From the NCBI GenBank assembly GCA_902580225.1, contig CACHJU010000020.1:1-42418 (forward strand): a stretch of 42,418 nucleotides of DNA. Reading direction: 5' to 3'. Position 1 is the stretch's first letter. Each line of letters opens with the position of its first letter. A program made the translations under genes and the position numbers. Origin of the DNA: an uncultured Verrucomicrobiota bacterium. GTDB lineage: Bacteria; Verrucomicrobiota; Verrucomicrobiia; Opitutales; Seribacteraceae. Below the pieces are notes generated by a model. That model made no database searches. It was given only the letters and a program-made list of their open reading frames with translations, and was not told the DNA's origin. Below, piece after piece: positions 2 to 26,934 of this stretch.

Positions 2-2986
2 GACTATGCCTATGAACTGCCTCAAGGGATTCAGGGCTCTCCTTATATCGCAATTGAAAATGGCATTCTTGTAGGCGATGTAACTAAGCTAAGGGAGTGG
101 AAAACTGGTACTTACGGCAATTCAATTATTGAGGCGGATGGTTTTGGAGCACCGGATTGGGATTCGTCTATGGCGGGTCCAATTTTAACCAAAAAAGCAT
201 TGTCTTTTATCAAAAGACATTCTGAAAGAAATGAAGATAATGGAATACGAAAACCATTCTTCATGTGTTATTGGAGCCAGTCTTGTCATGTTCCCCATAC
301 CCCCCCTGATGAACTGATGGGGGAAAAAGTAAAAGGTGCATCGCTGGACGCTCATTTAGATATGTTGGTGGAGGCTGATATAAGCCTGGGCAAAATAATT
401 GATGCTCTCAAAGCGAATGGTGAAATGGAAAATACATTGATTTTCTTCACTAGCGATAATGGTGGCTTATCCCGAGGTGCTCTCGGCAATTATAAGGGAG
501 GACACAATTCAAACGCAGGTTTCCGGGGAAGTAAAGCACAGGTCTACGAAGGCGGGCACCGCGTGCCTTTTATTGCCCGTTGGGGAAATGGTAAGCAGAA
601 TTCCCTAATCTCCCCCAGCTCTGTATCGGATAGCTTGATCGGGCTTCAGGACATTTATGCCACTTTAGCCGAACTCACAAGTCAACCAATGAATCCAGGA
701 GATGGATTAGATAGTCATTCATTTCTCGGCTCGCTTCTTGGCCAAAAAACTTCTTTGCCTCGGACATCTTTACTTATTCAGGCAAATAATGGAGCTTATC
801 ATGGACAACAATCCAAAAAATCCGTTCGAGAAAACATATGGAAACTAATTGCAACTAAAGAATTAAAAGCCATTGAATTATATAATCTCGCCAACGATCC
901 AATGGAGAGTAACAACCGGATTGGTGAAAAATCGCAACACGGTCGAGTCGAACGGATGACTACTGAATTAAATCGAATTATAAACTCTTCTAGAAGTACT
1001 CAACCTTTTATCTTATCTAAGAATGAGGAGAACATTGCCCAACCCAAAATACATTCCTATGAACTTTTCTCTCCCCGTGCCAGTTTAATTGGTAAAATGA
1101 AAACACCTCAGGGAACCAAAATCCAAAATTGGGGAGATAAATGGAAAATTGAGGGAAAAAGTCCGATGAGAGTATCCTTCACTCCCAAAACTGGCAGTAA
1201 ATGGAATCTTTCAGAATACAAACTTGTAGGTGTTCCAATTCAAAATTGGGAGCCCGGAATAACTACAATCGAGGGAAGAATCAACAACGGAAACCTGACC
1301 AGTTGGTCCCACCATGCGGTTGGTTTTGCAGTGGCACCCAGTTGGGAAAAAATAACTTTAGGGTTCCCCTTTCCGATGATAGAAGAAAGCTACCAGGGAT
1401 CATATCTTTACAAGGATCAATTGGCCAAGCCAGACGGACACCGTGTACATTGGCGAAGGTTTTTTCCTGAGGATGTTCGGGAAATCATATTTGACCTCAC
1501 CTCATCATCGGGAAAAATTAATACATTGATAAATGTGCCCATTCTTGCATGGCCCAATAAGAACTTATTAAATGATCGCTTGGAAAGCTTGCCCTATCTC
1601 GATGATCTTGGTCAAGTAAATGCCGTCCAATGGCCTGGCAAGGCAATGAACTTAAAAGAAGCAAGGGATACTATGCTAACTGAGTTCAAACAGGCTCAAA
1701 AAGATGCTAAGGAGAGAAAAATAAGTAAATTTGGTGGATGGGTTGACGGTCCGAGATTGAATGCAACCGGCAGATTCCGGACTCAAAAAGTGAATCAAAA
1801 ATGGTGGCTGGTTGACCCGGAAGGCTATTTGTTCTTTTCTGTAGGCACTTGCTTAACGGGCAATCGTGCGGAAACCTTAGCCGAACCAAATAGAGAAAAA
1901 AATAACTTCTTTGCTTACCTGCCAGGTGAAAATGACTATTTAAAATGGACAGGGTTGAGAAAATTAGGAGGAAGAAAATTTATCAATTTCCCCGCTTTAA
2001 ACTACAGGCGATATTTCGGGGATAAATGGGAGGAAACGGTCAATATTGGAACTCATAACCGCTTGCGGGCATGGGGATTAAACACTCTTGCTTGCTGGTC
2101 GGACGAAAGGTTACAGAAAGATCGTAAGACCCCCTACATGCTAATCTCATCCATTTGGTGGCAAGCCAATGGTCATCGAAAATTTCCCTCCCCTTTCCGT
2201 CCAGACTTTCAATCCGACTTGGAAAAAAACCTCAGAAAACTAGCATGGGCAAAAAACGATCCTTTTTGTCTGGGAATTTTTATTGGGAATGAGTTGGAAT
2301 GGCCGGATCGAATTGGGGAAAAAATTCAAAAGCTTCCACTAGACCATCCGAGTAAAATTTGGGCAGTCAATGAATTAAAAAAACAGGGCAAAAATAATTC
2401 ACCCGCAAAAGTAAAAGATTTGGATCAACTCTATTTCCCGTTCGTAAAAGCGTTCTTTCAAAAATGTAAAGCTGCGATCGAAAAAGAACTTCCCGGCACC
2501 CTCTTTTTAGGTTGTCGAACCCACCGTGGACCTAATGTACTAGGAAGGGGAGCACTTGGCTCAGTGGATGTTTTTTCTGTAAATGTTTACGATTCAAGAG
2601 TACGATCATGGCAGATTCCCACCGATATAGACATTCCCATTATTAGTAGCGAATTCCATTTTGGTGCAGTAGACCGGGGAGTTCCCAGTCCTGGGCTTTC
2701 CGGATCTTGGGATCAGCGACAACGTGCACTTTCTTTCGCCCATTATTTAGCCTCGGCACTAGCGGACAATCGATTTGTGGGCGTAAATTGGTTCCAATGG
2801 ATTGACCAGTCGGCTGCGGGACGAAAAGACCGCGAAAATCACCAGTGCGGCTTTATTGATGTTGCAGGAAGAGCTTACCCCGAACTTGTGGAAGTGGTTT
2901 CACAGGCAACCAAAAATATGTATCATGCTCGGACTAAAGAAAATTCATACACCGAATCCGTTCTTGCTGACTTATTAAAAAATTAA
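2..2986 (+). CDS. Sulfatase fused to GH50/agarase-like glycoside hydrolase (5' truncated)
   Basis: The reading frame is open to the left window edge, so the true start lies outside; the Met at 170 is internal. The first third is the C-terminal part of a type I sulfatase: a His-containing CHVPH stretch near nt 290, the metal-binding SDNGG motif near nt 451-467, and a YEGGHRVPF stretch near nt 545. The N-terminal formylglycine segment is outside the window. After a linker and a probable beta-sandwich region (about nt 1050-1600), a clan GH-A hydrolase resembling GH50 beta-agarases begins with a GGWVDGP...WWLVDPEG stretch (about nt 1732-1830). Its probable acid/base Glu is in GNELEW (about nt 2287-2304) and its probable nucleophile in SEFHFG (about nt 2648-2665). 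Inferred role: removing sulfate from, and cleaving, an algal galactan-type polysaccharide. The GH family assignment is from motif resemblance. The next sulfatase follows after 8 bp. Confidence 0.8.
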   Translation, partial: DYAYELPQGIQGSPYIAIENGILVGDVTKLREWKTGTYGNSIIEADGFGAPDWDSSMAGPILTKKALSFIKRHSERNEDNGIRKPFFMCYWSQSCHVPHTPPDELMGEKVKGASLDAHLDMLVEADISLGKIIDALKANGEMENTLIFFTSDNGGLSRGALGNYKGGHNSNAGFRGSKAQVYEGGHRVPFIARWGNGKQNSLISPSSVSDSLIGLQDIYATLAELTSQPMNPGDGLDSHSFLGSLLGQKTSLPRTSLLIQANNGAYHGQQSKKSVRENIWKLIATKELKAIELYNLANDPMESNNRIGEKSQHGRVERMTTELNRIINSSRSTQPFILSKNEENIAQPKIHSYELFSPRASLIGKMKTPQGTKIQNWGDKWKIEGKSPMRVSFTPKTGSKWNLSEYKLVGVPIQNWEPGITTIEGRINNGNLTSWSHHAVGFAVAPSWEKITLGFPFPMIEESYQGSYLYKDQLAKPDGHRVHWRRFFPEDVREIIFDLTSSSGKINTLINVPILAWPNKNLLNDRLESLPYLDDLGQVNAVQWPGKAMNLKEARDTMLTEFKQAQKDAKERKISKFGGWVDGPRLNATGRFRTQKVNQKWWLVDPEGYLFFSVGTCLTGNRAETLAEPNREKNNFFAYLPGENDYLKWTGLRKLGGRKFINFPALNYRRYFGDKWEETVNIGTHNRLRAWGLNTLACWSDERLQKDRKTPYMLISSIWWQANGHRKFPSPFRPDFQSDLEKNLRKLAWAKNDPFCLGIFIGNELEWPDRIGEKIQKLPLDHPSKIWAVNELKKQGKNNSPAKVKDLDQLYFPFVKAFFQKCKAAIEKELPGTLFLGCRTHRGPNVLGRGALGSVDVFSVNVYDSRVRSWQIPTDIDIPIISSEFHFGAVDRGVPSPGLSGSWDQRQRALSFAHYLASALADNRFVGVNWFQWIDQSAAGRKDRENHQCGFIDVAGRAYPELVEVVSQATKNMYHARTKENSYTESVLADLLKN

Positions 2987-2994
2987 AAAGGCTC

Positions 2995-4545
2995 ATGACT
3001 AGGTTAATAAAATTTAAAGGCTTTATTTTGGTTGCATTCCTTTTATCTAATACTCTCAAATCCGATATCCGTCCTAATATTCTTTTTCTTTTTAGTGATG
3101 ATCACGCCCTTCGGACAATCGGTGCCTATCCCGGATCTATCAACAGCACTCCTAATCTTGATCGGATTGCCCAGCAAGGTGCAATATTTACCAATTCATT
3201 TAATGTGAATTCAATCTGCTGTCCTAGCCGGGCGGCTATCCTCACCGGCAAACACAGCCGAGCGAATGGGGTAATTGGTAATAGTTCAAAGTGGAACGGT
3301 AAACAATGGGTTTATTCAAGAGAAATTGGTAAGTCAGGCTACCAAACCGGACTTATTGGGAAATGGCATCTTAAAGGAAATCCAACTGATGAATTTCAAA
3401 GTTGGGAAATTCTCTCAGGTAAAGGAGGACAAGGATCCTATTTTAATCCAACCTTTCTTTCTTCCAAGGGAGAAACCAAGGTAATAGGTCATTCTACCAA
3501 AATTATTACCGACAAAGCACTTGAATGGCTAAAAAAGCGGGACGATGCAAAGCCTTTTTTGCTCTGTGCTCAATACAAAGTACCCCATATTCATCGCCTA
3601 CCCCCAATTAAACATATGTACGGTTACGATGAAGTTGAATTTCCGGTGCCTGATACTTTTTTCGACAACTTTTCTACTCGTTCATCTTTTGTTTCGGAAA
3701 CATGGATGGCACTCAAGGGGATGAAAGGGCATGTCTTAAATGTTGCTCCGACAAAGGAAGAAATTGATAAAAACCCAAAAATCCGACCATTATTCCTCAA
3801 CGAAATGACTCCTAAACAACAAAAAGCATGGCATTTGGCCTATGATCCAAGAAATCTCAAATATCGGCAATTACTACAGGATGGAAAGTTAGAAGGTAAA
3901 GCAAAAACACTTTATATTTATCAACGTTTTATTAAAGATTACATTCGTTGTATAGACGGTTTAGATGATCAAATTGGCAGAATTCTGAAATTTCTCGATG
4001 ATAATGACCTGGCGAAAAATACTCTTCTTATCTACAGTTCCGATCAAGGTTTTTTCACGGGTGAGCATGGGTGGGCCGAAAAGAGATGGATGTACGAGGA
4101 AAGTTTTAAATCTCCTCTATTGATGCGTTGGCCCAATACAATCAAACCTGGCACGGAAATCACAGAACTAGTACAAAACATTGACCTTGCTCCAACCTTT
4201 TTGAAAGCAGCTGGTTTATCAGTGCCAGAGAATCTTCACGGTTTACCACTGCAACCTCTATTTTTAAAGAAATCAAATCAATCTTGGCGGAAAGATATTC
4301 TTTATCAATATTTTGATGGTGGAACACCTCAAAAAAGAGGGCCTTACAATATGCCTAGACATGAAGGCATTCGTGATGAAAAATATAAATTAATTTCATT
4401 TTATGAATTTAATCAATGGGAATTCTATGACTTAGAAAAAGATCCAAATGAACTTAGTAATTTAATTAATGACAAAAAAATGAATAACGAGATTTTTCGA
4501 ATGAAAAAAAGGCTAAAGATATTGAAAAATAAATTTAGTCAATGA
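2995..4545 (+). CDS. Secreted type I sulfatase
   Basis: 516-residue arylsulfatase-family protein. Residues 1 to about 23 form a hydrophobic signal peptide, so it is exported. Asp35-Asp36 (FSDDH) supply calcium ligands. The sulfatase signature C75-C-P-S-R79 contains the Cys that is converted to formylglycine (the first Cys of the pair fits C-x-P-S-R). A second metal site and substrate region are seen in SSDQGFFTGEHGW and KRWMYEES, a combination common in sulfatases acting on sugar sulfates. The C-terminal region has the usual FYDLEKDPNE element. Substrate cannot be assigned from sequence alone. It follows the sulfatase/agarase-like fusion by 8 bp with a weak upstream AAAAGG, so the two are probably one operon for sulfated polysaccharide use. 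An anaerobic or aerobic formylglycine maturase is needed but not seen here. Confidence 0.93.
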   Translation: MTRLIKFKGFILVAFLLSNTLKSDIRPNILFLFSDDHALRTIGAYPGSINSTPNLDRIAQQGAIFTNSFNVNSICCPSRAAILTGKHSRANGVIGNSSKWNGKQWVYSREIGKSGYQTGLIGKWHLKGNPTDEFQSWEILSGKGGQGSYFNPTFLSSKGETKVIGHSTKIITDKALEWLKKRDDAKPFLLCAQYKVPHIHRLPPIKHMYGYDEVEFPVPDTFFDNFSTRSSFVSETWMALKGMKGHVLNVAPTKEEIDKNPKIRPLFLNEMTPKQQKAWHLAYDPRNLKYRQLLQDGKLEGKAKTLYIYQRFIKDYIRCIDGLDDQIGRILKFLDDNDLAKNTLLIYSSDQGFFTGEHGWAEKRWMYEESFKSPLLMRWPNTIKPGTEITELVQNIDLAPTFLKAAGLSVPENLHGLPLQPLFLKKSNQSWRKDILYQYFDGGTPQKRGPYNMPRHEGIRDEKYKLISFYEFNQWEFYDLEKDPNELSNLINDKKMNNEIFRMKKRLKILKNKFSQ

Positions 4546-4655
4546 ACTAATGAAATCTCTTAAATTTATTTGAATTCAAAGTAAGTAGTTTCATTGACTT
4601 ACATATTGCTCATGTTCAGGGTTTCATTTATTCCTCATTAATTTTTAACCTCTCC

Positions 4656-4993
4656 CAAGTGGTTTCGTTCACAACAAGAAGAGCTCATATTAAACAAATT
4701 TCAGGAGCAATCTTGGCTCCTTACATCCACTCTGCCAAAGAATACCGAACAACGGTTAAACAAGTTAATGACGGAGTGATTGGGAAAATTGTGGAAGCCC
4801 TTTACCAACCGCAAACTTTGATTATTCCGATCCACTTACCGAAACGGTATTACTTGGTGTTATCGCTACTCGATTCCCGAAGCAGGAACTAATTTGGGAT
4901 GCTTTAAAATTATTTTTTAAAAATAGCCCCGAAGCAGCTTCTCTCATCAAAAAGAAATATCGTAAGGGATGGGAAGTAAGAGGACTAGGCTGA
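4656..4993 (+). pseudogene. Remnant of a Gfo/Idh/MocA-family oxidoreductase
   Basis: No intact gene lies between 4546 and 4994. From 4814 to the TGA at 4991-4993, one frame reads as a typical C-terminus of the Gfo/Idh/MocA oxidoreductases abundant in Verrucomicrobiota: DPLTETVLLGVIATRF, then a region with LIWDALKLFFKNSPEA, ending in KKKYRKGWEVRGLG. It has no start codon. The preceding stretch (about 4659-4813) encodes a fragment with VKQVNDGVIGKIVEA, resembling the middle of the same family, but in another frame. The junction near 4805-4816 looks like an internal deletion plus frameshift. A 77-codon open frame from GTG 4659 crosses the junction but loses the family pattern after it. This is most likely a dead fragment of a sugar-dehydrogenase-like gene once linked to the sulfatases. 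4546-4655 holds nothing recognisable. Confidence 0.68.
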
Positions 4994-4994
4994 A

Positions 4995-6263
4995 TTAATT
5001 TTCTCCATCTCGTAATTCACCCATCCATCCACCCTCTTTGGTCGGCGGAGAAAATTTTATAGCATATGGAAGTTCTGTATCTCCTTCCAAAATTTGTAAT
5101 TCTTTCCATTTTTTTTGATTGGAATTAAAGTTGTCCAATAAATATGAGCCTCCGTCATGAATGGTCTTTTTCAAAAGTGTGTATAAATCTCGTATCACAT
5201 ATTTGCCGAAACCCACTTGGCAAGCAGGTACCGAGACAGTTCTGCGGTCACAATTCATAGAGGGTTTAAATCCAAGTTTTTTTTCAAGATCTCCTTGAGA
5301 AAAGAATTCATTCATAACTAATCCCGCCCATCTTTCACTGTGTTTCCATTCTTTTCCAGGATTACTGACATCAGCACAATGCAAAATAAAAGAACTCAAT
5401 AAAACTCTTGATTCATAACTTAAAAAACTCGAGACATTTAAACCATTTTTATAATCCGAACGGGCTGCACCAATATCTTCTTGAGTAGGTTTTTTTCGAT
5501 GTTGCTTGATCACCGAAACTAATTTGTCAGAAAGTTCGGAAAATTCTTTCATCTGATCCTGATGCCGCTTCATATCAGTCCACAAAATAGATTGTTCAAT
5601 CAAATCTCGTCCCTCTTTGATCTGTTTCTTTTGTAAATCTTCCATTCCTTCATTAATAACTAAAATTTTATGCTTATCTAAAAGTTCGAGAACATAGTTG
5701 GCCGAGCGCTTTTCTTGCAAACTCTCTGCACCAGTTTCCTTAAAGTAGGGATGCTCAACTTGAATAAGAAATGAATTATTCACTCCAGTGTGCAAAGCAT
5801 CGTGACCAAGTGCAGACAGAATAAGGCAAGACCGTTCGGATGGAGTAAGGTATACGCCCCCACCAGTTTCCAACAACATATGAGTCGTAACCATAACATC
5901 CATGGCATGCGTAAATGAATGATATTCCTTGCGGATTATTGAATAATCAATTCCATCGTCTTTTTTAAAATATCCCTCTCTCAAATCCTCAAAAAAAGCA
6001 TGTAAAGAGTCTGCTTTGGGATTTCCGGGCAATTGGTAACAACCCGCATCAATAAAAAAGGAATTAAAGACTTCCAATTGTGATTTATGTGAATTCGAAA
6101 ATTCAAATGCGTTACTTGAAAAGCCAAAAGAATCAATTGAAGAATATTTTCTATTAGTCCTTAAATTAGAATCTGAATCGCTCACACAAGAAACAAGCCC
6201 CAAAAAACAAAAAAAGAAAACAAATTTGTTACATAAATAAAAACTATAATTTAAAAAATTCAT
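4995..6263 (-). CDS. Class I (PDEase_I) 3',5'-cyclic-nucleotide phosphodiesterase, predicted lipoprotein
   Basis: 422 residues. The N-terminus is hydrophobic and ends in the lipobox L23-V-S-C26, predicting lipid anchoring facing the periplasm. Residues about 110-395 match the catalytic domain of eukaryotic class I PDEs rather than bacterial HD or HD-GYP proteins. Y114-H115-SFT-H119 corresponds to the catalytic His and first metal His. H154-D155-AL-H158-TGVNNSF is the class signature HD-x2-H-x4-N. HCADVSNP supplies the second metal Asp (D298). The segment RWAGLVMNEFFSQGDLEKKL is strikingly like PDE4. CQVGF supplies the invariant substrate-purine Gln (Q349). Expected reaction: hydrolysis of cAMP and/or cGMP to 5'-NMP. 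Base specificity cannot be read from sequence. It is last in a - strand unit, 54 bp after the secretin gene. Bacterial members of this class are uncommon. Confidence 0.9.
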   Translation of the reverse strand: MNFLNYSFYLCNKFVFFFCFLGLVSCVSDSDSNLRTNRKYSSIDSFGFSSNAFEFSNSHKSQLEVFNSFFIDAGCYQLPGNPKADSLHAFFEDLREGYFKKDDGIDYSIIRKEYHSFTHAMDVMVTTHMLLETGGGVYLTPSERSCLILSALGHDALHTGVNNSFLIQVEHPYFKETGAESLQEKRSANYVLELLDKHKILVINEGMEDLQKKQIKEGRDLIEQSILWTDMKRHQDQMKEFSELSDKLVSVIKQHRKKPTQEDIGAARSDYKNGLNVSSFLSYESRVLLSSFILHCADVSNPGKEWKHSERWAGLVMNEFFSQGDLEKKLGFKPSMNCDRRTVSVPACQVGFGKYVIRDLYTLLKKTIHDGGSYLLDNFNSNQKKWKELQILEGDTELPYAIKFSPPTKEGGWMGELRDGEN

Positions 6264-6317: not shown

Positions 6318-8843
6318 TTATTTTCTAATACCCTTCATTTGAAAAATAATCTGAGCAGAATCGCGATTAAAAGCCTGCTCGAATTCAGGATAATAGTTTA
6401 TAACTTCATAAAAGAAACGGGCAGCATCGTAATCAATTACATGGTATTTATCCTTAAGTTCTTGTTCTGTTGGAAAGATAATTTGGCGACCAACCCGAAA
6501 CTCATCAATTGTGACTGGCATGGTGCTATTCAAAGCTAGAATTCTCTTCAACACCAACACACCTTTTAAGACCTCCAAAGCATCAGCTCCACGGACTCCA
6601 GGAGGAGAGATATTGGTTCCTAGTAAGATTGTATTTCTATTTGCATCGTCCTTATTTAATCTACTCATTAACTCAATATAATGAGATGCACTACGCACTC
6701 CAGTGCGATAAATCTTGGCCCTTGGGTGCTCAAAAGGGCCAGCCGAATTTGCTTTATGGTCCGCAAAATTGAACACCAAAGAATTATCTTGAGACTTTGC
6801 TAATTTATCAAGAAGAATACTCAATAAATGAGTCTTAAATTTGTTGCCATATTTGACATCATTATTCTCTTCAAAAAGAAGAATGTGATCATCAGCAATA
6901 TATTGATGAAATTTTGATTTATGTACAATTTCCCAGATCATCCTTCGTACAATAACTTCTTCTCCGGGAACTTTTTTACCCAAGTAACTAAAGATTGGCG
7001 CCTCGTCTGCAATTTCAGGGTGCTTCCTCTTATAAGCTCTTAAATCTTCTAAAATATTTTGATAAAACTCGCTTTTAGTGGCAAAAGAAAGATCAAAAAG
7101 GTCGTCATCCCGAATTCGATAAGCATTTCTAAAAAGCAGATTGTCAAATGAATCAAAAGATTGAGAATCCTTGGGAATGACATAACTGAAGGACTTTTCA
7201 GACGCGTCCATTATATGTGGTGTCAGAACAATGATAACTTCACGATCAGCACCGCTTTCTGATTGGGACTTAAATAGATTACCTAATACTGGTATTTTGG
7301 AAAGTAGAGGAATACCGGTCGACCCTTGGTTCTTTTTTTTGTCAATTAATCCTCCTATAATGAAAGGGGTATTATCTGCGACCCGAATAAAACTCTGAAC
7401 TGTCTTACTTTCAATACTTGGAGGCGTTCTTTTCTCAGGTTCAAGAGAGCTTTCGGAAGCATCATATATAGCACTACTTACAATTGTCTCAGTCTGCATT
7501 GTAACTTCAGAACCGTCTTCTGAAATTCTTGGTCGAATATTTAATACAATTCCAGTATCAATATAATTTACACTTTTTTGAGTCCCGTAGGAAGTGGTCT
7601 GAATCGTCGTGTTGGGGATTTGGGTACCAATACGAATTAATGCCTGTCGACCATCAAGCACTAAAATGGTTGGGTTAGTCAAAACCTCTGCTGTCCCATC
7701 TGAAATTGAAGCATTCAAGGCGGCCTTAAAACCAAGAGGATTTAAGTTTCCAGGAACTCCAAGAATACTATCAGTGACCGGTTTTGAAGGATCCGTACGG
7801 GTCATTCCATTATAAATAGGATATCCAGAATATGATCCTATTTGATCATTCCTAAATGAAAATAAAGAATTTTGATCAGAATAAAAGCGACTACTTATGC
7901 CATCTGCATTTAGCTCGGTGATTGATCTTTTACCGCTATGGTGGTAATTGATTCCCAATTCTTTCGCTTTGTTCGTATTTATTTCAACAACCAAAGCTTC
8001 AATAACAATTTGGCTTGCCGCAACATCTACTTCATTTCTCATCAAATTCAATAGTGCATTCAGTTGTTCAGGATACTGCTTCTCATAAATAAAAAGTAAT
8101 CTTTGCTCTGGTGCTCCGGTTGTTGATGAATGAAGGTATGTGCCACTTAGACGGTCGGTGCCCATCGCATTTCTTCCTCCGTCCAGGGCTGGTTGCATCA
8201 AACTTGTCTTCGCTGCATCTAATATTTTGACCACTATTGGATATTTTTTAGACTGAGCAAATTCTGTAAAGATACTTTCATTTAATGTTTCACCTCTTCC
8301 TGCACTAAACTCAACTGTACTGTATCCTAATGCTTTGAGTAATGCTAAGACTCGATCACTTTGCATGTAACTCAAGCGATAAGAATGAAAAGCATACAAA
8401 CTTTTTTCAGATCCGATAGCAGCAATGGGCGTTGGAGGTGACAAAGGAGCCTGTGCTTGGTATTGTCCTGAATTATTTACAGGAGGAACCACAGGCTGAC
8501 CTTGAGGTGCATAGCCTTGTTGAAATTGCTGAGCAGGTGCATTATTAGGAAAAGCCGGTTGTGCCTGTGCAGTATTTGTCTGTGCATATAAATTTCTAAA
8601 CTCTTTTTTTTCTGAGTAATCAACCGAGGACACCCCTAAAGGTGTGGGTGGAATTTTGCGGGAAGTTATTGAAGTGGATATTTTTCTAAAATCAAGTTCT
8701 GAAATTTCTCCAAAATTTTCACTAAATTCAATGACCTCTTTAGCCAAGGCAATACTTGCGATAAAAGAAGAAAAGAACCAAAACCAGAATAAACTTAAGA
8801 TACTGATTTTTTCTAAAATAATAAGATTATACTTTTTTTTCAT
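6318..8843 (-). CDS. Secretin (GspD/PilQ superfamily) with extended C-terminal domain
   Basis: 841 residues. A signal segment with a hydrophobic core (about 11-34) is followed by a low-complexity linker rich in Gln, Pro and Ala (about 90-138). An N-domain-like region covers about 145-275, and the secretin domain about 276-546. The secretin part is recognisable from VIEALVVEINTNKAKELGIN, then SDGTAEVLTNPTILVLDGRQ, a DTGIVLNIRPRI strand, and the closing IPLLSKIPVLGNLF and VIIVLTPHIM motifs. The product should form an outer-membrane ring pore. Unusually, about 295 residues follow the last conserved strand, much longer than the short S-domain of many GspD proteins and with no family I recognise. 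No other type II secretion or type IV pilus gene lies in the window. Its start is 11 bp from the stop of the upstream carrier-like gene, so the two are probably co-transcribed. Confidence 0.9.
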   Translation of the reverse strand: MKKKYNLIILEKISILSLFWFWFFSSFIASIALAKEVIEFSENFGEISELDFRKISTSITSRKIPPTPLGVSSVDYSEKKEFRNLYAQTNTAQAQPAFPNNAPAQQFQQGYAPQGQPVVPPVNNSGQYQAQAPLSPPTPIAAIGSEKSLYAFHSYRLSYMQSDRVLALLKALGYSTVEFSAGRGETLNESIFTEFAQSKKYPIVVKILDAAKTSLMQPALDGGRNAMGTDRLSGTYLHSSTTGAPEQRLLFIYEKQYPEQLNALLNLMRNEVDVAASQIVIEALVVEINTNKAKELGINYHHSGKRSITELNADGISSRFYSDQNSLFSFRNDQIGSYSGYPIYNGMTRTDPSKPVTDSILGVPGNLNPLGFKAALNASISDGTAEVLTNPTILVLDGRQALIRIGTQIPNTTIQTTSYGTQKSVNYIDTGIVLNIRPRISEDGSEVTMQTETIVSSAIYDASESSLEPEKRTPPSIESKTVQSFIRVADNTPFIIGGLIDKKKNQGSTGIPLLSKIPVLGNLFKSQSESGADREVIIVLTPHIMDASEKSFSYVIPKDSQSFDSFDNLLFRNAYRIRDDDLFDLSFATKSEFYQNILEDLRAYKRKHPEIADEAPIFSYLGKKVPGEEVIVRRMIWEIVHKSKFHQYIADDHILLFEENNDVKYGNKFKTHLLSILLDKLAKSQDNSLVFNFADHKANSAGPFEHPRAKIYRTGVRSASHYIELMSRLNKDDANRNTILLGTNISPPGVRGADALEVLKGVLVLKRILALNSTMPVTIDEFRVGRQIIFPTEQELKDKYHVIDYDAARFFYEVINYYPEFEQAFNRDSAQIIFQMKGIRK

Positions 8844-8854
8844 GGATGAAGTTT

Positions 8855-10933
8855 TTAAAACGAATTATTAGTCTGAAGTTTGTTTGATCTTTTTTTTGCT
8901 AGTAAAGATACACTTGCATTTGAGTCACTAGAGAGCATATTACAATATTTTCCTATTTCATCAGGATCAGTTTCTAAAGATAAAAAGACCTTTAGACCTG
9001 TCTCCCTCACAGAATTATTCTCGTGGCTAAAACAATCTAAGATGAAAGGTTTAACTTCTAAAAATGTTTCCTTGGTGAATGCCATTAACAATTCGCGTAA
9101 AATAGGAACCGGATAATCCATAGAAGCCTTTTCCACAAATGTTTTTAGACTGATTTCTGGTTTTTGTAAATCATCCTTTGGAGTTACAAACTGTGTTAAA
9201 ATATCTGTTCTCTTGGGACCCATAACTCCTTTTAAAACCTCGATCGCCTCAGATTTGGCATTCACATCATTCGCTTTTATACAATCAAAAACAACAAGAA
9301 AGTTTATATTTGAATCCAAAGTAGACATAATATTCGTTAAAACTTCTAATTTTTGCTCAAACATTTCATCCAAGGAAATCTCTAAATCTTTGAATTCATG
9401 AACTAGCCTAATCGTAGCAATTATATGATAATAAGTTTCACATTCAATTAGGAGTTTTTTAAATTCATTTTTTGCAAAAACTTTATTTTTTCGAGTCAAA
9501 CAAGTTGGGTTAATATTACTGTAGTACTCTTTAATATATTTAAATCGTTCTTCTTTTGAACTAACCTTTGCAATTTGGTTTTCCAAAAGATTGTAGTTTT
9601 TGGGAATTACTGAGTGAGGAAGAAAGGATGGAGTTGAACTTGCTGAAGTAACCCGGGGGAAAACAAACTTTGCACCAATCATCTCAACTAATGAATTCAG
9701 ATATTGCCTGTAATTTAAAAAAGCAACAAACAACCAACATAAGCAAAGAACAATAATGATTAGGTTCAGCCGCAAAACAATATCATTTTCAGTGCCCTCT
9801 TGCCACCAAGCCAATGTCGAAGTGATTACTAAACTGATAGCAGCTATGGTTGCTGGTCGGGTTAACCCATCGACTGCACTGTTCATTTGACCTCTTAATT
9901 TTTTATTTACCGAAAGAAAGAGCATCTGCAATCCCACATATTCAATTGTAAAAAAGACGACTTGCGTTATGAACTTCCCAACATAAACGGCATCTTGTTC
10001 TTGAAAAACCACGGCTCCAATTGCAGTCAATAGAAGAAGAATAGGTAATATCGAAATGGCTGCAATCACGCCTCCTCGGGTTAAAATAGCTTTTACTACG
10101 AATAATTGTAATAATAATTGAGCACAACTTGTATAGGTGTAAAATTGACCAAAAAAATCATACAAATCCTCTGAATAATCTTTTCGAACTTCAAATTTAA
10201 AATTTATATCAACAATCGATAAGACAATAGCAGAAAAAACCACCAACCAAGTCATAAGAATGGATTGTTTACTGCTAATCAAAACTAAAAGCTTGCTAAG
10301 TACACTATTTGATTTTTCAACATCTGGCTTTGGCTCATCATCTGTTAATTTGAATAAGTCAGCACGAACCATTAAAATTACTGATACTATAATTAAGACC
10401 GCTGCCACCAGACCAAGAGAAAGTTCATTTACAAATTCCTGCTTGCTAGCAACAGAAATTGTAAACCCAGCGAGTATGCAACCAAGGGTTCCTGCTGCAC
10501 CAATCAAACCCATCCATTTTTTTGATTCGGTCGGGTTTAAAACTCCCATAGCCATACCCCAAAATAATACCATGGGGAGTATTACAATGGTTTCACAAAG
10601 CATATAAGCAAATACATATATCGGCTTTGTTTCTCCCTTATTTCCAAACAAATAAACAACACAAACCATAGCAAGTAATGTGATCACTATACCAGATGTA
10701 GCAATTCTCATTGCTCCAAAAGCTTGAAAACGGCCACATAGATAAGTGGTAAACAATGCAAGAACTATCGAAAGACTTGCCGCAGCCATTATCATTAATG
10801 GGATACTTTCAGGTTGAAAATATTTCAGCAAAAAAGAATCAGATGTTGCACGTGCCATCATGGAGCTTTGTGCAACCATAAAATAAACTAAACACAAGAT
10901 TTTGATTTTCCTATCAATCTGGAATATTTTCAT
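8855..10933 (-). CDS. Npt/TLC-like (ATP/ADP carrier superfamily) membrane protein with HEAT-like C-terminal domain
   Basis: 692 residues. Residues 1 to about 430 contain around 12 hydrophobic segments in an MFS-like arrangement. The pattern resembles the nucleotide transporter family (Npt1/Npt2, plastid and rickettsial ATP/ADP carriers), including a segment near LFLSVNKKLRGQMNSAVDGL that matches the usual position before helix 10. The remaining roughly 260 residues are soluble and helical. They look like degenerate HEAT repeats: AKSEAIEVLKGVMG, then HENNSVRETGLKVFLSL. Such carrier-HEAT fusions occur in free-living bacteria, where transport of nucleotides has mostly not been shown, so substrate is uncertain. 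It is the first gene of a unit followed by the secretin (11 bp) and the phosphodiesterase. An A/T-rich divergent spacer lies upstream. Confidence 0.72.
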   Translation of the reverse strand: MKIFQIDRKIKILCLVYFMVAQSSMMARATSDSFLLKYFQPESIPLMIMAAASLSIVLALFTTYLCGRFQAFGAMRIATSGIVITLLAMVCVVYLFGNKGETKPIYVFAYMLCETIVILPMVLFWGMAMGVLNPTESKKWMGLIGAAGTLGCILAGFTISVASKQEFVNELSLGLVAAVLIIVSVILMVRADLFKLTDDEPKPDVEKSNSVLSKLLVLISSKQSILMTWLVVFSAIVLSIVDINFKFEVRKDYSEDLYDFFGQFYTYTSCAQLLLQLFVVKAILTRGGVIAAISILPILLLLTAIGAVVFQEQDAVYVGKFITQVVFFTIEYVGLQMLFLSVNKKLRGQMNSAVDGLTRPATIAAISLVITSTLAWWQEGTENDIVLRLNLIIIVLCLCWLFVAFLNYRQYLNSLVEMIGAKFVFPRVTSASSTPSFLPHSVIPKNYNLLENQIAKVSSKEERFKYIKEYYSNINPTCLTRKNKVFAKNEFKKLLIECETYYHIIATIRLVHEFKDLEISLDEMFEQKLEVLTNIMSTLDSNINFLVVFDCIKANDVNAKSEAIEVLKGVMGPKRTDILTQFVTPKDDLQKPEISLKTFVEKASMDYPVPILRELLMAFTKETFLEVKPFILDCFSHENNSVRETGLKVFLSLETDPDEIGKYCNMLSSDSNASVSLLAKKRSNKLQTNNSF

Positions 10934-11711: not shown

Positions 11712-12155
11712 ATGGATGAAAACGAAAACTATCGAGATGTTAAGTTTTTAACAAATTCGAGTTCAATTTCACTAAATTCCAATTTTGCAATTATTACTGC
11801 TTACAACCCTATGGATGAGTTATTAAATCATGAGATTAACAAAGCAAAAAATAAAGAATTGTATAAATATTTACAGAAATTTAGGAAAAAAATAATTCTC
11901 ATAATTGGTTGCTCACATGATCTTATCCACCAAGAACCTGGATTTCTAATAGACATTACTTTAGAAGATGCTTTAAGAATTGGAAAAGAATTTCAACAGC
12001 GGGCTATTTTTTGGATAGAAAAAAACGAACTTGAAATTATATATTGCGTAAAAAGACAAAGAATAAAAATTGGCAAATTTTCCAGTAGAATAGAAATCAC
12101 TGGACTGCAATTGCAATCAAGCTACTTATTGCAGGGACATAAAGATTATCATTAA
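11712..12155 (+). CDS. DUF3293 domain protein
   Basis: 147 residues, cytoplasmic (no signal or membrane segment). The sequence follows the DUF3293 pattern: FAIITAYNPMDELL near residue 25, then a Cys/Gly-rich strand IIGCSHD, EPGFLIDITLEDALRIG, and QRAIFWIEKNELEIIYC. The function of this family is unknown. It is small and common in proteobacteria and some PVC bacteria. The gene is single, follows a terminator, and its 3' end overlaps the convergent lipid kinase gene by 59 bp. Confidence 0.78.
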   Translation: MDENENYRDVKFLTNSSSISLNSNFAIITAYNPMDELLNHEINKAKNKELYKYLQKFRKKIILIIGCSHDLIHQEPGFLIDITLEDALRIGKEFQQRAIFWIEKNELEIIYCVKRQRIKIGKFSSRIEITGLQLQSSYLLQGHKDYH

Positions 12156-19065: not shown

Positions 19066-20055
19066 TCAATGAAGCAAGGCGTAAAGGAAAACATTCATTC
19101 CCAACCTAGAATAAAATGCATGCGCATAATTACTGATCTCTTCACCAGAATAATATTTAAAAATTCTCCAACTACCATTCGGTTCCTTCACCCAGAGAGG
19201 ACGCTGACCATTTTCTGAATAAATGACATCCTTTAAGCCATCTTCCCGGGTAACTTCGTAAGTCCCTCCAGAAAAAGAAGCCAATTTTAAATTTTGATCA
19301 AAATTCTCAGCTGACTCACGAATACGAAATGATATGGGTGGGATCCATGCTCCATATTCATCTCGCCCCCAACCCATAGCGCAAATAGGAGAAGCTACAC
19401 AAGCCAAGCGACCCTTTATCTTAATACCAACAAATGAATAAGTCGCCTGTGGCCATTTTTCCCTTTCCACAAAATGAAGGACAGTTTCGGGTAACCTTTT
19501 TTGATCTGCCTGAATTTTCAAGTCTTCATTCTTCGGCAAACCTCTGAAGAAAGTCCGGAACAAATCATGATCGCGAGCCAAGGGAATGAAAGTCTTCTCA
19601 GGTAATACCTGTGAAAAAAGCTCTCTTACTTCAGGGCGCTCTTCCCACGCGGCATAACTGTGCCCAAGATCAGAACCAAGAAAGGAAGCTTTTATACCTG
19701 CATCCAAATAGACAAATCCACCCAATTCCATATATCGCCTAAGTGCAGTTCTTTCCTCTACAGAAAACTCAAGATTGGGCTGTTCATCACAATTCACATA
19801 TAGAATCGGGTTTTCTTTCAAACGTTCATCAGTAAAACTGTTAATGAATAAAGGATCAGTATCAAATCGTGCATTGGTTTGATCGTTCATCATTTTCAAA
19901 AGACTCGGAAGAGCATCGGGATATCTACGAACCCCGCTCTCCTGTCTTAATAACTGAACAACGCGGATGCTGCCATCCCTAGATTGGTTTGATCCCTGGC
20001 CTGATAAAAAAGAAAGCAGGAAAAAGTTGATAAATAATAGACAAATAAACTTCAT
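19066..20055 (-). CDS. DUF4159 domain protein, exported
   Basis: 329 residues. Residues 1-19 form a signal peptide (FLLSFLSG-Q). The rest follows DUF4159, a family that usually sits in MoxR/BatA gene clusters: VRRYPDALPSLLKMMNDQTN, then NPILYVNCDEQPNLEFS and ERTALRRYMELGGFVYLDAG. The last stretch resembles a class I glutamine-amidotransferase-like fold that has lost catalysis. A second half with a beta-rich FRIRESAENF and DVIYSENGQRPLW region follows. Biochemical function is unknown. The start ATG shares one base with the TAA of the HEAT gene (TAATG), indicating translational coupling. Confidence 0.82.
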   Translation of the reverse strand: MKFICLLFINFFLLSFLSGQGSNQSRDGSIRVVQLLRQESGVRRYPDALPSLLKMMNDQTNARFDTDPLFINSFTDERLKENPILYVNCDEQPNLEFSVEERTALRRYMELGGFVYLDAGIKASFLGSDLGHSYAAWEERPEVRELFSQVLPEKTFIPLARDHDLFRTFFRGLPKNEDLKIQADQKRLPETVLHFVEREKWPQATYSFVGIKIKGRLACVASPICAMGWGRDEYGAWIPPISFRIRESAENFDQNLKLASFSGGTYEVTREDGLKDVIYSENGQRPLWVKEPNGSWRIFKYYSGEEISNYAHAFYSRLGMNVFLYALLH

Positions 20056-21656
20056 TATGGATTTAAACCTAGTTTGTTTAATTCAATTCGAGCTAAATTC
20101 GAAATTCGATTTTGTGGGTTTCTGTTAATATATTCATTCAGAGCTGGAATACCATTCTGTTTATCTTCAAGCAGGCCATCCATCGCAGCTCGCTGTATTA
20201 CATAATCATCATCGAGTAAAGATCGGCTCATCACTTTAATCCATCCCGGAACCCGGCGAGCGGACATCGCTCTTATAGTGGTTGAACGGACTATCGTATC
20301 TTCATCAATTAGAAGATCAAAGCCCAAAGTATTGATTGCATCCTGCTTTGCAGTCAAAAGACTTTGAGCAGCAAAAATTCTTACATCAGAAAATTTACTA
20401 TCAACCAAAAGCTTAAGTTCACTTTCATTTAAATTTTCGATCCGTCCCCGGAGTGAGTTCAAAACATTTTGCCTGACTCCTTTGTCACGATCTTCAATCG
20501 CGGGCAACCACAATGAACTTTTTTTCCAAGCTTCACTTAAACCAATATACCTTTGCCAAGCAACAGCCCGGATTTTCGAACTGCTATGAGCAGTCAAAGC
20601 CCGATACACCCCGATTGCATCTACACCAAGGGCAGAAACCGCATACAAAATGGTGGTTACCTGAGTGCTCATTCCATCCGCTTCAAGCAAAAACAGCTTA
20701 ATTTTCTCAACTACCTGGGCAGGTACACGTTCTCCAAATCTGGCTAATTCCACTGCAGCCATAGATAAAATCTCGGGATCTGAATCAGCGGTCATATCCC
20801 TTAGAATTGAACGATAACCGTCGTGATAACGATTTGAGTCACGAGCCACAGAAACCACTTTCAAGCGAATTCCCCGATCCTCATGTAGTGCCAATTGCTT
20901 GATACGATTGACAATCCTTGATTGAGACGCATTCGCAGATATTCGAGTCATTGCAGTCAATAAAACCCCAACATCAGAATCCGACAAAAGCTTCTCCAGA
21001 GTAGATACCGGGATGGGAACTCTAAGATAAATATGATACTTGAGAATATTTTGACGAACAATCGCATCTTCATCCAGAAATGCATTCAAGGTCATTTGAT
21101 ACAAATCTGCTCTCATTCTTGCAGGAACAGCTCGATATACCTTTCTTCCATTAATTTCAACAATCTCCATTCCGCTTCTCATCATACCGCTCACTAGTCG
21201 AGGAATCATAGTAGAAACCTCTCGCCGGACTTCAACATCTGGATCACCCAGTTTAGAATAAATTTTTTCAACCAAAGATTTGTCATATACAACAAACCCA
21301 TTTGATGCATGTTCCGCGAGAGAAACCATCGCAGCCCTTCTTACCAAAAAGCTTTTATCATCAAGAGCTCCAACTAATAAAACAGAAGTTCTTGAATTAC
21401 GATATTTACCAAGTAACTTAGCCGCCCCTACTCTTCGGCCAATATCATTATTTCTTAAATCCTCACCAGCTCGTTCGATCGTTTCTGCTTCGCTGGAACG
21501 ACGAGCAATCGGAGCAACTTCGAAAGTGGAATTTTCATCTATTGAATTCAACAAGCTATCATTAGAATCATTTAATGGATTAATCGCTGGAATCCCCTGA
21601 CTTAACAAAGTGATTGAAAAAAAAGTGAATAATAAAAAACTCAAATAAATCTTCAT
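20055..21656 (-). CDS. Exported HEAT-repeat protein
   Basis: 533 residues. A signal peptide (MKIYLSFLLFTFFSITLLSQ) leads into a short Asn/Ser-rich linker and then about ten HEAT-type helical repeats covering nearly all of the protein. Examples are RRVGAAKLLGKYRNSRTSVL, DKSFLVRRAAMVSLAEHA and DPDVEVRREVSTMIPRLV. I chose the ATG at 21656 because it gives the signal peptide and overlaps the upstream VWA gene stop by 4 bp (ATGA). The open frame extends to 21728 but that segment is not conserved in character. Probable role: a periplasmic scaffold or binding partner for the VWA and DUF4159 proteins encoded on either side. Confidence 0.85.
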   Translation of the reverse strand: MKIYLSFLLFTFFSITLLSQGIPAINPLNDSNDSLLNSIDENSTFEVAPIARRSSEAETIERAGEDLRNNDIGRRVGAAKLLGKYRNSRTSVLLVGALDDKSFLVRRAAMVSLAEHASNGFVVYDKSLVEKIYSKLGDPDVEVRREVSTMIPRLVSGMMRSGMEIVEINGRKVYRAVPARMRADLYQMTLNAFLDEDAIVRQNILKYHIYLRVPIPVSTLEKLLSDSDVGVLLTAMTRISANASQSRIVNRIKQLALHEDRGIRLKVVSVARDSNRYHDGYRSILRDMTADSDPEILSMAAVELARFGERVPAQVVEKIKLFLLEADGMSTQVTTILYAVSALGVDAIGVYRALTAHSSSKIRAVAWQRYIGLSEAWKKSSLWLPAIEDRDKGVRQNVLNSLRGRIENLNESELKLLVDSKFSDVRIFAAQSLLTAKQDAINTLGFDLLIDEDTIVRSTTIRAMSARRVPGWIKVMSRSLLDDDYVIQRAAMDGLLEDKQNGIPALNEYINRNPQNRISNLARIELNKLGLNP

Positions 21657-23815
21657 CGTAATCCCGCCTGCCTCCTCATTATCCACTCCATGCCTGCCAC
21701 GACAAAAAGAGCAATAAAAAGTACCCACAAGTTAGCAAGACTATGGCGTTTTCGAACCGTTGGTAAATCCACTTTAAAAGTGGGCTCCCAATTGGTTTTC
21801 ATGTCTTCAACCGATAAGTACTGACCACCGGTCAATTTTGCTAGCATTTGCAAATCCAATCGTGCAAAAGATGTATCAACTGCCTCTTCACCGGCTTCCG
21901 AAACGCGAAGAAAATTCTCACGCTCCAAAATTTCTCCATTCGGAAACCTTGAATAATATTTAACCGCATATGCTCCCGCCAAGGTGGGACGAAAACTCCC
22001 AGCATATCTACCCGCCAATGAGCCTTCTGGATACAACTGTACAACCTGTTCAAAATCATCCGGCCCGGCAATTCTTGCCTCAACCATTGCATCCATTGAT
22101 GGTTCGAAATCTGCGCCCAATGCATCGACTCGTAGTGGAGCGTCTACTCCCCTGAGAAAAGGGACTCGGGAATCCTCCGTTTTCAAGCGGTCTTCCCCAC
22201 CGGTGCCTAACCATTGAATCAATGCCTGCCAAAAATACCTAAATTCTTTTGAACCCTCTTCGTCACTCAAGGAGCGACGCCAATCATTGGGTGATCCCCA
22301 ATACCCAACTTTACCAGCTCCGTAAGCTTGAACACTCAAGACTGGTTTGCCATTGGCTCGTGAAAGAACAATTCCCCTGGCAGCTTGGTTTTGTTCTTTA
22401 ACAAAAAAACCGGGAAGCCGCTTGGGTAAGAAAGGTTTCATTTTATCAACTTCATCTATCGGACCAAAAAGTGGTTCTTCCAAGGTTAACAAGGTGAGGT
22501 CTTCCTTAGCCATAACTTTCTCAACTTCCTTGGCAGGAACTAGCCCACCAAGTTTTGAACGTGCGTTTCCTAGTTCTCCAAAAAGAAGCAATCCTCCCCC
22601 TTTCTTTTGTACAAAGTCTTTAAGTGATAAAACTAGACTGTTATTAAGATCATCTAGGACGCTTGTATCCAAAAGAATCGCATCATAATTCATCCAAAAG
22701 GATGTTTTTTTTGGATAATGAGGATTAATATCTTCACCGAATGCATGAAAAGCTTTTTCACTCATTCGAACCAAAGCACGAAATTCAAATCGTTCTTCAT
22801 TAACTAAAATCCTTTTTAAAAATGGAAATAATGGTCGTACCTGATTGGAAATGTATAATGTAGTGAATTGATCGGGTGCTTTGACCACGACTAGAAGAGA
22901 ATCTGAATCATTCGAGGGGTCTGCATCACCCCTAGGTGAATTAATTAATATCCGATATCTGTAAGGACCTGACTGTTTGGGAACAACCGGGGAAAAATAA
23001 ACTTCTTTTTTTTCACCCGCGGACAATGCAACCGAAATCTCTTCCAGTGTTTTATTCCCAAGCTTTAGCCGGAGTTTTGTTTGGGTAAAATCCTCGAATT
23101 TATTTTCGACTTGGGCACTTAGAAGAAGCTCCTCCTTTGCAATTGCAATAGGTTTTCTGTCTGAAAACTGAACCGACAAGTCACCTATCATTTGCTCTTT
23201 TCCGACTCCAACCACATTGACCGGAATTCCACGGGTTCTATATTCTTTGGCGACCTCTAAAATTGAGGCTCCTGTATTATTTCTTCCATCTGAAAAAACC
23301 ACCACGGAACCAAGTGATTTACTATCTTTTTCATTTTGTAAACTCCTTGACAATGCATCTCCCATGGCAGTCTTTTGTCCGAGTTCAGTTACTCTCCATG
23401 AATTTCTGCTTAACCGTTCAACCTGATTCGAAAAACCGAGGCTATCAACCTTTCCGAATTTATCTTTCATTTTGGTGATCCAAGAATCAACATTCGATGA
23501 ATCCATAAAAGGCTTAATCTGTTCAATCCTTTTAATACCACCTGCCCCATCTTTTGTATTCATACTTCCGGATAAATCAGTAAAGGTGAGCAATTGGAAT
23601 TCCTTGGGATTAGGTTCATCTGAAGTGACAAATGGCCGAGCTAATAAAAGCAGAAAGAACAGGACACCCAAAAACCTCAAAGAAATCAATTTCCACGCCA
23701 ATTGAGGAATAGTGGAACCTAAAACTGCACGGCTGTGAAAAAGAAAGAAAATGAACAAGAAACCTGCAATCAAAACAAACCAAAGGGGTGAAAAGGGCCA
23801 GTCCCAACCCATCAT
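21653..23815 (-). CDS. VWA-domain membrane protein of the Bat type
   Basis: 720 residues. Two N-terminal transmembrane helices (about 10-27 and 43-61) precede a von Willebrand factor A domain with metal site D80-L-S82-G-S84-M and GSVVVFSDGRNNTG downstream. Later parts are a beta-rich middle domain, a glutamine-amidotransferase-like segment (YDAILLDTSVLDDLNN, then KKGGGLLLFGELGNAR) and a final transmembrane helix (about 697-712) with a short basic tail. The domain plan fits the large second VWA protein that commonly follows BatA and DUF4175-like genes in PVC and Bacteroidetes clusters. Start and stop overlap the neighbouring genes (TAATG upstream, ATGA downstream), so expression is coupled. 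Confidence 0.86.
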   Translation of the reverse strand: MMGWDWPFSPLWFVLIAGFLFIFFLFHSRAVLGSTIPQLAWKLISLRFLGVLFFLLLLARPFVTSDEPNPKEFQLLTFTDLSGSMNTKDGAGGIKRIEQIKPFMDSSNVDSWITKMKDKFGKVDSLGFSNQVERLSRNSWRVTELGQKTAMGDALSRSLQNEKDSKSLGSVVVFSDGRNNTGASILEVAKEYRTRGIPVNVVGVGKEQMIGDLSVQFSDRKPIAIAKEELLLSAQVENKFEDFTQTKLRLKLGNKTLEEISVALSAGEKKEVYFSPVVPKQSGPYRYRILINSPRGDADPSNDSDSLLVVVKAPDQFTTLYISNQVRPLFPFLKRILVNEERFEFRALVRMSEKAFHAFGEDINPHYPKKTSFWMNYDAILLDTSVLDDLNNSLVLSLKDFVQKKGGGLLLFGELGNARSKLGGLVPAKEVEKVMAKEDLTLLTLEEPLFGPIDEVDKMKPFLPKRLPGFFVKEQNQAARGIVLSRANGKPVLSVQAYGAGKVGYWGSPNDWRRSLSDEEGSKEFRYFWQALIQWLGTGGEDRLKTEDSRVPFLRGVDAPLRVDALGADFEPSMDAMVEARIAGPDDFEQVVQLYPEGSLAGRYAGSFRPTLAGAYAVKYYSRFPNGEILERENFLRVSEAGEEAVDTSFARLDLQMLAKLTGGQYLSVEDMKTNWEPTFKVDLPTVRKRHSLANLWVLFIALFVVAGMEWIMRRQAGLR

Positions 23816-26800: not shown

Positions 26801-26934
26801 CAAACCGAATCGTATAAATCCAATAAATAGAGAAGTACAGGCCAGCTCAAGAAACCAACGATCAAAGCAAACAAAGATCGACTGAATAGGAAGAAACGAC
26901 CTTCCCGCTTTATAAATTCTAAAAAGTTAGGCAT
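23815..26934 (-). CDS. DUF4175-like large helical membrane protein
   Basis: 1039 residues. Two to three transmembrane helices lie near the N-terminus (about 18-77) and another at about 145-165. A periplasmic beta-rich region follows (about 200-500, with Ig-like strands such as EPPIVEITEPAKDLQL). The rest is long, charged and helical (about 540-1000), rich in Gln, Glu, Lys and Asn, with many coiled-coil-like heptads. Topology and neighbours match DUF4175/TIGR02302-like proteins, whose role is unknown. I use the ATG at 26934, which overlaps the BatA-like gene by 8 bp and gives MPNFLEFIKREGR. The open frame to 26994 adds an unlikely 20 residues. The helical part may act as a mechanical or assembly arm for the VWA proteins. 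Confidence 0.75.
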   Translation of the reverse strand: MPNFLEFIKREGRFFLFSRSLFALIVGFLSWPVLLYLLDLYDSVWPILESVAMTWVLGAGLLSICVFIGLFLRSFLLRPTVKKLAKQIEVANPDLLDMLNCAVELEEASQKRSLSFMEKRVLQKTEMKAQEIVWTQGTRPKPRFWLFLAVGLVFGFSLTALSFNKSPLQKTIDALSGEPGLFLFTTKTGATHNQEYSSSYEFSRGTDISVFADVTRSHRGEKMAYIEFEENGRMKRLEMLATPVMGRFEFVVPSLQKDFIYRVVTPSLVSDWQKLQAYDPPSVSEVNWKIIPPDYLKMDNIDHQNFGYIRAPEASEIMLELIVNEMPENVQANILSDDLKFEFEKVNANTFRIEHILENEWKGTVQLIDLDAPQREPVSYDEFTFSPIPDEPPIVEITEPAKDLQLASEDSLLIEIYSSDDHGIADVRINISHAGDKEEETIFVDPIEKEKTISYVLDLSERALAIGDVITYMALAMDNKEPEGQIARSEIYFIEILPPEGNSTESDQEMSGEQKEIPVRDFINKTKKIIRSTYDALLEDSFNKEKLGLAIAMDSLGLKNEMTKVYDEFEGQFPVVDGIDLGELLNEATYHIEQTEIYAGDQMLDESLEPSEKTLRKLVQLYALMQKMQKQKSKGKGKPKESKESVGKNEVNEENDSKDPAEQLNDLAKDLEKLKDFKERQNELNRDIGRAAGAGKKGEPNQEIALEQEGLRRDLEGLRERWYEESGSLGKVGSLDQAGMEMKDAAGNLRRDSPRKAQPHGDLASEALGQAISEVESAMSALAAGMVDQLQEGASGLAEKQRKLGDETEIAQDGQGEKLKNQQEELNDLAKQLLEKIDQAARSMGNFNENATEDLLRGARDSREGGLERSGKRAANSLLYEAFPQAKKEEDNVAENLEKLSDDLQGVADKLRNLGNGALGELVEKLQNAQEEIPDMSGEELKEMSKELADAVGSLPNAEQDQRLQNLTQFFDQVAKSENPSQSSSMASAAVADALELVQQFFWKQAVENRLRRNQETTAAPSRYKKQVEEYFRRIAEGE

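Follow-up and report, generated by a model that had tools for sequence, protein, structure and literature searches.

A predicted lipoprotein of the class I cyclic-nucleotide phosphodiesterase family encoded beside a secretin and a transporter relative in uncultured Opitutia

The stretch of DNA analyzed here (the window; 42,418 nucleotides) is contig C20 of a draft genome of 2.36 Mb, which is 67% complete and consists of 115 contigs. Its minus strand carries a putative operon that begins with a gene for an NTT/TLC-type transporter relative (8855..10933; 692 aa; PF03219, 41.7 bits). This gene is followed after 11 bp by a secretin gene (6318..8843; 841 aa; PF00263, 133 bits) and, after a 54-bp gap, by an ORF of 422 aa with an ATG start (4995..6263) encoding a class I cyclic-nucleotide phosphodiesterase (PDE) with a predicted lipoprotein signal. 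Promoter-like sites barely exceeded those in shuffled sequences (32 vs 24.8, sd 5.7) and terminators numbered 5 vs 4.8, so it is gene spacing and order that suggest transcription as an operon. The site is bordered on its near flank by a DUF3293 gene (11712..12155, plus strand; PF11697, 61.8 bits) and on its far flank by what is left of a decayed GFO_IDH_MocA oxidoreductase gene (4644..4990, plus strand). The remnant was recovered by tblastn in three pieces (residues 1-25, 160-184, and 380-443) and is internally deleted; the gene at this place is longer in relatives. Two sulfatase/SGSH_C genes in tandem adjoin the operon (170-4545, plus strand), and a gene cluster encoding DUF4159, HEAT repeats, and an N-terminal double-transmembrane domain was found at 19066-28933 (minus strand).

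A preliminary description of this DNA had assigned the PDE to the class I family from its catalytic residues, and the Pfam search supported this assignment: the protein matched PF00233 (PDEase_I; 5154-5924, minus strand) with an E-value of 4.1e-57 and 194 bits, far over the cut-off of 24.8. The sole other Pfam match, HD-CE, fell below its cut-off (22.7 vs 27), and an NCBIfam search of the ORF gave no match. At E ≤ 0.001, 151 PDB sequences matched the PDE, and the best 60 of these 151 were all named phosphodiesterases, mostly PDE4. Residues 40-396 (5076..6146, minus strand) were predicted to adopt the all-helical class I catalytic fold, and sequence and predicted fold together support a class I enzyme. 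The more specific affinity to PDE4 suggested earlier was not supported, since the best PDB matches of the profile were PDE1B and then PDE4, and the predicted fold tied PDE4, PDE6, and RhoPDE. Among the PDB chains compared, the N-terminal half of the protein scored best with PDEB1 enzymes, which we take to be kinetoplastid. Transfer of a class I PDE from a eukaryote to a bacterium is our guess, the eukaryotic side of the comparison being made up of PDB chains. The gene is under purifying selection, with dN/dS values of 0.09-0.23 in six pairs, the synonymous sites being near-saturated in the pair with the lowest value (G000-G013).

Next, we compared the active sites in an alignment of PDE relatives (A1; 14 rows, window included). 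Eleven residues (Y114, H115, H119, H154, D155, H158, E184, D298, N301, Q349, and F352) were invariant in 14/14 rows, and these include all seven that the preliminary description had placed in the catalytic site (H115, H119, H154, D155, H158, D298, and Q349). We presume that H115 is the general acid and, from PDE4 work, that N301 and Q349 would favor cAMP over cGMP. The putative purine-binding glutamine and hydrophobic clamp (Q349, F352, and V316) likewise showed no variation in the 14 rows. The Zn ligands given for PDE4B in the available part of the source (His238, His274, Asp275, and Asp392; PMC13095499) mapped by motif to H119, H154, D155, and D298, so that no direct Zn ligand was missing from any row.

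The metal pocket as a whole was less complete. The accessible text of a study on Giardia lamblia GlPDE describes eight metal-pocket residues as strictly conserved, His1176 of GlPDE among them (PMC5617230). Seven of the eight were kept here, and the place of His1176 was occupied by Ser187 in 14/14 rows. The earlier statement that every catalytic element is present thus stands for seven of the eight pocket positions and fails at this one; with Ser in place of a reportedly strictly conserved His, the enzyme might be weakly active or have a changed activity. The preceding residue, R186, was Arg in 13/14 rows, where human PDEs have His; in the same part of that study, this His is described as missing in Giardia and tied to an H-loop salt bridge (PMC5617230), whose acidic partner position is L157 in the window protein. 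Where the aligned PDB chains have E-N-H-H or E-V-H-H, the bacterial PDE has E-K-R-S. The window protein had no exact match to PROSITE pattern PS00126, reading HDALHTGVNNSF with Ala at the third place; the pattern matched exactly in 5/14 rows, and in all 14 once the third place was left free.

The first 26 residues (6186..6263, minus strand) form a predicted lipoprotein signal with the lipobox LVS directly ahead of C26. This position was Cys in all 13 A1 rows that reach the N-terminus, row L002 being cut by a contig end and left out of the count. When L028 was added, [AGS] preceded the Cys in 14/14 sequences and a hydrophobic 12-mer lay ahead of it in 14/14 (Kyte-Doolittle mean, 1.7-2.8), and the classic [LVIM]x[AGS]C was found in 10/14, including the window; the classic -3 residue was missing in the other four. 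The leaders of the relatives otherwise varied in sequence and length, and that of the window carries one Lys ahead of its hydrophobic stretch. Judged by the rule of a hydrophobic stretch followed by Cys, these data support the earlier claim of a lipoprotein anchored at C26, and the PDE would probably reside outside the cytoplasm.

To place the PDE in its genomic context, we compared gene order in 15 loci (the window and L016-L029), of which the 14 related ones were labeled Opitutia/Opitutales (nine), Verrucomicrobia/Verrucomicrobiota (four), and Porticoccaceae (one). The PDE followed the secretin in 13 of the 15 genomes with this secretin type (57 searched). The order transporter, secretin, PDE was conserved in 9/9 loci whose contig extends to the transporter; of the remaining six, the contig begins inside the secretin in five and inside the PDE in L029. 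A protein of 134-173 aa intervened between transporter and secretin in six of these nine loci. It matched PF00027 (cNBD) at 67-79 bits in L023, L026, and L027 and, just below the cut-off, at 26 bits in L020, and the intervening proteins of L021 and L028 grouped with the scanned cNBD proteins by BLAST. The cNBD protein was absent from the window, L017, and L025. The motif FGE...RSA, which we take to be the phosphate-binding cassette of cNBDs, was present in L026, L027, L028, L069, and L070; its Glu was lost in L023 and L079, and the cassette was degenerate in L020, L021, and L080. PDE and cNBD are therefore not inseparable, as the window lacks the cNBD and three loci have a degenerate one. Where the cassette is lost (L020, L021, L080, L023, and L079), the PDE of the same genomes (G019, G024, G023, G034, and G029) keeps its site. 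Of the five transporters scanned, only that of L023 showed recognizable HEAT_2 repeats, and the label "NTT-HEAT" for the others is based on homology. The window, G001, G013, G014, G022, and G025 each have parC close to the transporter gene on the same contig. A MocA gene followed the PDE in 9/14 loci among L016-L029 (not in L023, L024, L027, L028, or L029), so the site as described is valid for much of the genus and not for every carrier. The secretin frame was broken in G029:C210 (L024 1-1966) by an in-frame stop or shift, reflecting either an assembly error or a pseudogene. This operon, its pattern of presence and absence, and its frequent cNBD partner go beyond the preliminary description.

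We then examined how widely the PDE is distributed. PF00233 was found in 14/42 family genomes (5/14 among the good ones) and in 15/110 genomes of wider kin, own genome included, namely the 14 of the family and one with a 25-bit partial match. In 387 genomes sampled from the phylum, three matched, two over the cut-off, and only the window's own match was full length. A sample of 398 genomes from the phylum to which the L028 genome belongs gave 13 matches at E ≤ 0.001; two of these exceeded the cut-off, and the sole full-length match was in the L028 genome itself. Because the broader collection was scanned with narrow peptide patterns and the samples cover two phyla, more distant bacterial class I PDEs may exist. 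As far as sampled, the earlier remark that such an enzyme is unusual in bacteria holds, in agreement with the available parts of two papers that place class I PDEs in eukaryotes (PMC8115329; PMC4858519). Weak PF00233 matches (19-29 bits over ≤59 positions; G078, G409, and twelve of the 398 genomes) were discounted as chance or as HD-domain proteins of other kinds; the one sequence inspected was L015, whose 25 bits lie slightly above the cut-off. Carriage by Gammaproteobacteria, as implied by the Porticoccaceae label of L028, was considered improbable: this locus is 72-74% identical in DNA to the Opitutia locus L027 over most of the operon and, with no other full-length match in the 398 sampled genomes, is probably mis-binned. 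No match was found in phages, plasmids, or viral contigs. Isolate names suggest that the group is marine.

Within the family, presence of the PDE coincided with that of its operon partners. Among 37 genomes in which all three genes were sought, 13 had both the PDE and the transporter or this type of secretin, 20 had neither, one had the PDE alone (G027, contig end), and three had the transporter or secretin without the PDE (G001, plus G025 and G030, which end at a contig edge); Fisher's test gave p = 1.9e-6, a significance overstated by the relatedness of the genomes. Flanking regions downstream of parC were available from 13 genomes, ten of them PDE-negative. Empty sites, with DUF3293 directly beside MocA and gaps of 13-361 bp, were found in G017, G004, G018, G026, G016, and G012; in the other PDE-negative flanks, one extra ORF lay between (G010 and G003), other genes were present (G021), or the contig ended too early (G011). 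The three PDE-positive flanks gave no information, as they ended with the contig (G024 and G015) or held other genes (G027). In G001, the transporter, cNBD, and secretin genes occupy the site and a tblastn search for the PDE gave no match below E 0.1. Its secretin grouped with those of the PDE-bearing operons of G022, G005, and G472 (support 100/99 on a midpoint-rooted tree, with a long branch), which makes loss of the PDE from this genome probable. On a ParC tree that is partly unresolved, with 11 of its 24 inner branches starred, the PDE state requires at least seven changes, a count that incomplete genomes may inflate. The ParC proteins of G006 (with PDE) and G009 (without; site near a contig end) differed by 0.6%.

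The closest known systems are the catalytic domains of eukaryotic class I PDEs (PDE4B/4D, PDE1B, PDE6, and choanoflagellate RhoPDE), from which the present protein differs in its bacterial host, its lipoprotein signal, the lack of a regulatory domain, the change from E-x-H-H to E-x-R-S, and the loss of the H-loop acidic residue. Like CpdP, the periplasmic cAMP phosphodiesterase of Vibrio fischeri, it is a bacterial cyclic nucleotide PDE with a (predicted) extracytoplasmic location, whereas CpdP has the class II motif HxHLDH and is not homologous. The available text of PMC4222275 assigns the V. fischeri enzyme to class II and also covers the class III enzymes CpdA and SpdA, which are bacterial cyclic nucleotide phosphodiesterases as well but carry metallophosphoesterase motifs and are not homologous, SpdA being predicted as cytoplasmic. 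GlPDE resembles the present enzyme in being class I, in having an N-terminal membrane region, and in lacking the H-loop salt-bridge pair (Gly1146/Ala1175, equivalent to L157/R186 here); unlike the bacterial protein with its Ser187, this eukaryotic enzyme keeps the pocket His1176 (PMC5617230, available part). For the operon, the closest precedent is the NTT-HEAT and NTT-HEAT-cNBD proteins: a separate cNBD gene has been reported behind NTT-HEAT genes, and a link to cAMP was suggested (Major, Embley and Williams, 2017; PMC5381601). A similar NTT-then-cNBD arrangement may be present here, with a TLC/NTT match in the window, HEAT_2 repeats in 1/5 transporters, and the cNBD gene in 6/9 loci but not in the window; the accessible part of that paper names no secretin or class I PDE, and these two genes are an addition to the arrangement it reports. 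A search of titles and the beginnings of abstracts in open-licence literature gave no description of a bacterial class I PDE or of this operon, which is weak evidence of absence. In the literature searched, the class I fold and its expected chemistry are known, and the host, anchor, pocket substitution, and operon are not described.

Cyclic nucleotides are probably made in the host, since its own genome had three class III cyclase matches, two of which were inspected (GAF-GAF-PAS-cyclase and CHASE2-cyclase), and four cNBD matches: a 539-aa cNBD protein, an MscS-cNBD protein, a 616-residue part of a longer frame, and a cNBD-receiver protein. No DNA-binding domain was detected by Pfam at E ≤ 0.01 on the scanned cNBD proteins, and no CRP-like regulator was seen in this incomplete genome. 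Separately, class III cyclases L030-L034 (G015, G024, G031, G001, and G018) matched PF00211 at 208-217 bits; other listed cyclases of the family scored ≤178 bits, and the best of the own genome 86 bits.

Taken together, we favor, at a probability of about 0.6, a class I PDE that is an envelope lipoprotein and hydrolyzes cAMP within a nucleotide-handling module of transporter and secretin in uncultured Opitutia. Export of the protein would follow the Sec/lipoprotein route, with C26 as the site of lipidation and a linker of ~15 residues tethering it to the periplasmic face (or the cell surface) of an envelope membrane, where its binuclear metal site would hydrolyze cAMP, probably over cGMP, to the 5'-nucleotide. 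Encoded last, after the NTT-type transporter relative, the stand-alone cNBD protein of some lineages, and the secretin, it may serve a module in which the secretin forms an outer-membrane pore and the NTT relative sits in the inner membrane. The PDE would then remove or convert cyclic nucleotides crossing the periplasm, either ending an envelope cyclic-nucleotide signal or converting incoming cyclic nucleotides. G001, which keeps the other three genes (transporter, cNBD, and secretin) and lacks the PDE, speaks against such a module.

A serious though rather unlikely alternative is nutrient scavenging, by which plankton-derived dissolved cAMP would be converted to AMP, dephosphorylated, and taken up as a source of P, C, and N. 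The neighboring sulfatases and the nucleotide-transporter relative fit this reading, as does the growth of Vibrio fischeri on cAMP by means of CpdP; NTTs, however, classically carry ATP/ADP and not AMP. PF02872 (5'-nucleotidase C-terminal), the phosphatase family sought, gave no match in the 67%-complete own genome and was present in just 1/11 PDE-bearing genomes (41 searched); its absence from the other ten weighs against the commonest form of scavenging. According to the available part of PMC4103542, cAMP occurs in dissolved form and marine bacteria take it up, in keeping with this alternative and also with the favored reading. The substitutions at Ser187 (14/14) and R186 (13/14), where aligned eukaryotic enzymes carry His-His, would suit a dead or altered relative that kept the fold and, through the E-K-R-S change, became a cyclic-nucleotide binder or a phosphohydrolase acting on another substrate. 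We consider this improbable, because the direct Zn ligands, H115, the Gln, and the Phe clamp are all invariant, dN/dS is low (0.09-0.23), and GlPDE, which likewise has a substitution at the first of these His positions, hydrolyzes cAMP according to the accessible text (PMC5617230).

Far less credible is a cytoplasmic enzyme of ordinary cAMP turnover with a fortuitous lipobox. Class III cyclases in the genome, the single Lys of the window leader, and the four of 14 sequences without the classic -3 residue would agree with it, but the hydrophobic stretch and [AGS]-Cys were kept in 14/14 N-termini despite divergent leaders. Eukaryotic contamination or a mis-assembled contig might be suspected in a draft of 115 contigs at 67% completeness; we regard this as next to negligible, since the gene lies mid-contig beside bacterial genes and another 12 genomes of the family have lipobox-bearing relatives behind this type of secretin.

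Class I PDEs are a well-known family of drug targets, and the bacterial lineage offers a natural minimal enzyme, free of regulatory domains, on which the need for the pocket His could be tested. The operon likewise gives genetic access to the long-standing question of how sea bacteria use dissolved cAMP. As an extension of the favored module, we tentatively put forward, as an unlikely scenario, a trans-envelope circuit in which the secretin passes cyclic nucleotides through the outer membrane, the NTT relative under cNBD control reads or moves nucleotides at the inner membrane, and the eukaryote-type PDE of the envelope ends the signal, so that extracellular cAMP would be exchanged or eavesdropped on. 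If this were true, a second gene pair of these genomes, an MscS-cNBD channel with a secretin, would share the same theme.

This second secretin, 30-39% identical to that of the operon, lies directly after a cNBD protein in G000:C26 (L076 811-4101), and secretins are thus paired with cyclic-nucleotide-binding proteins twice. Its partner was scanned in the own genome alone, where it is a 516-aa fusion of an MscS channel and a cNBD. By coordinates, the second cNBD-secretin pair also occurs in G005, G008, G013, G014, G015, G019, G022, and G034.
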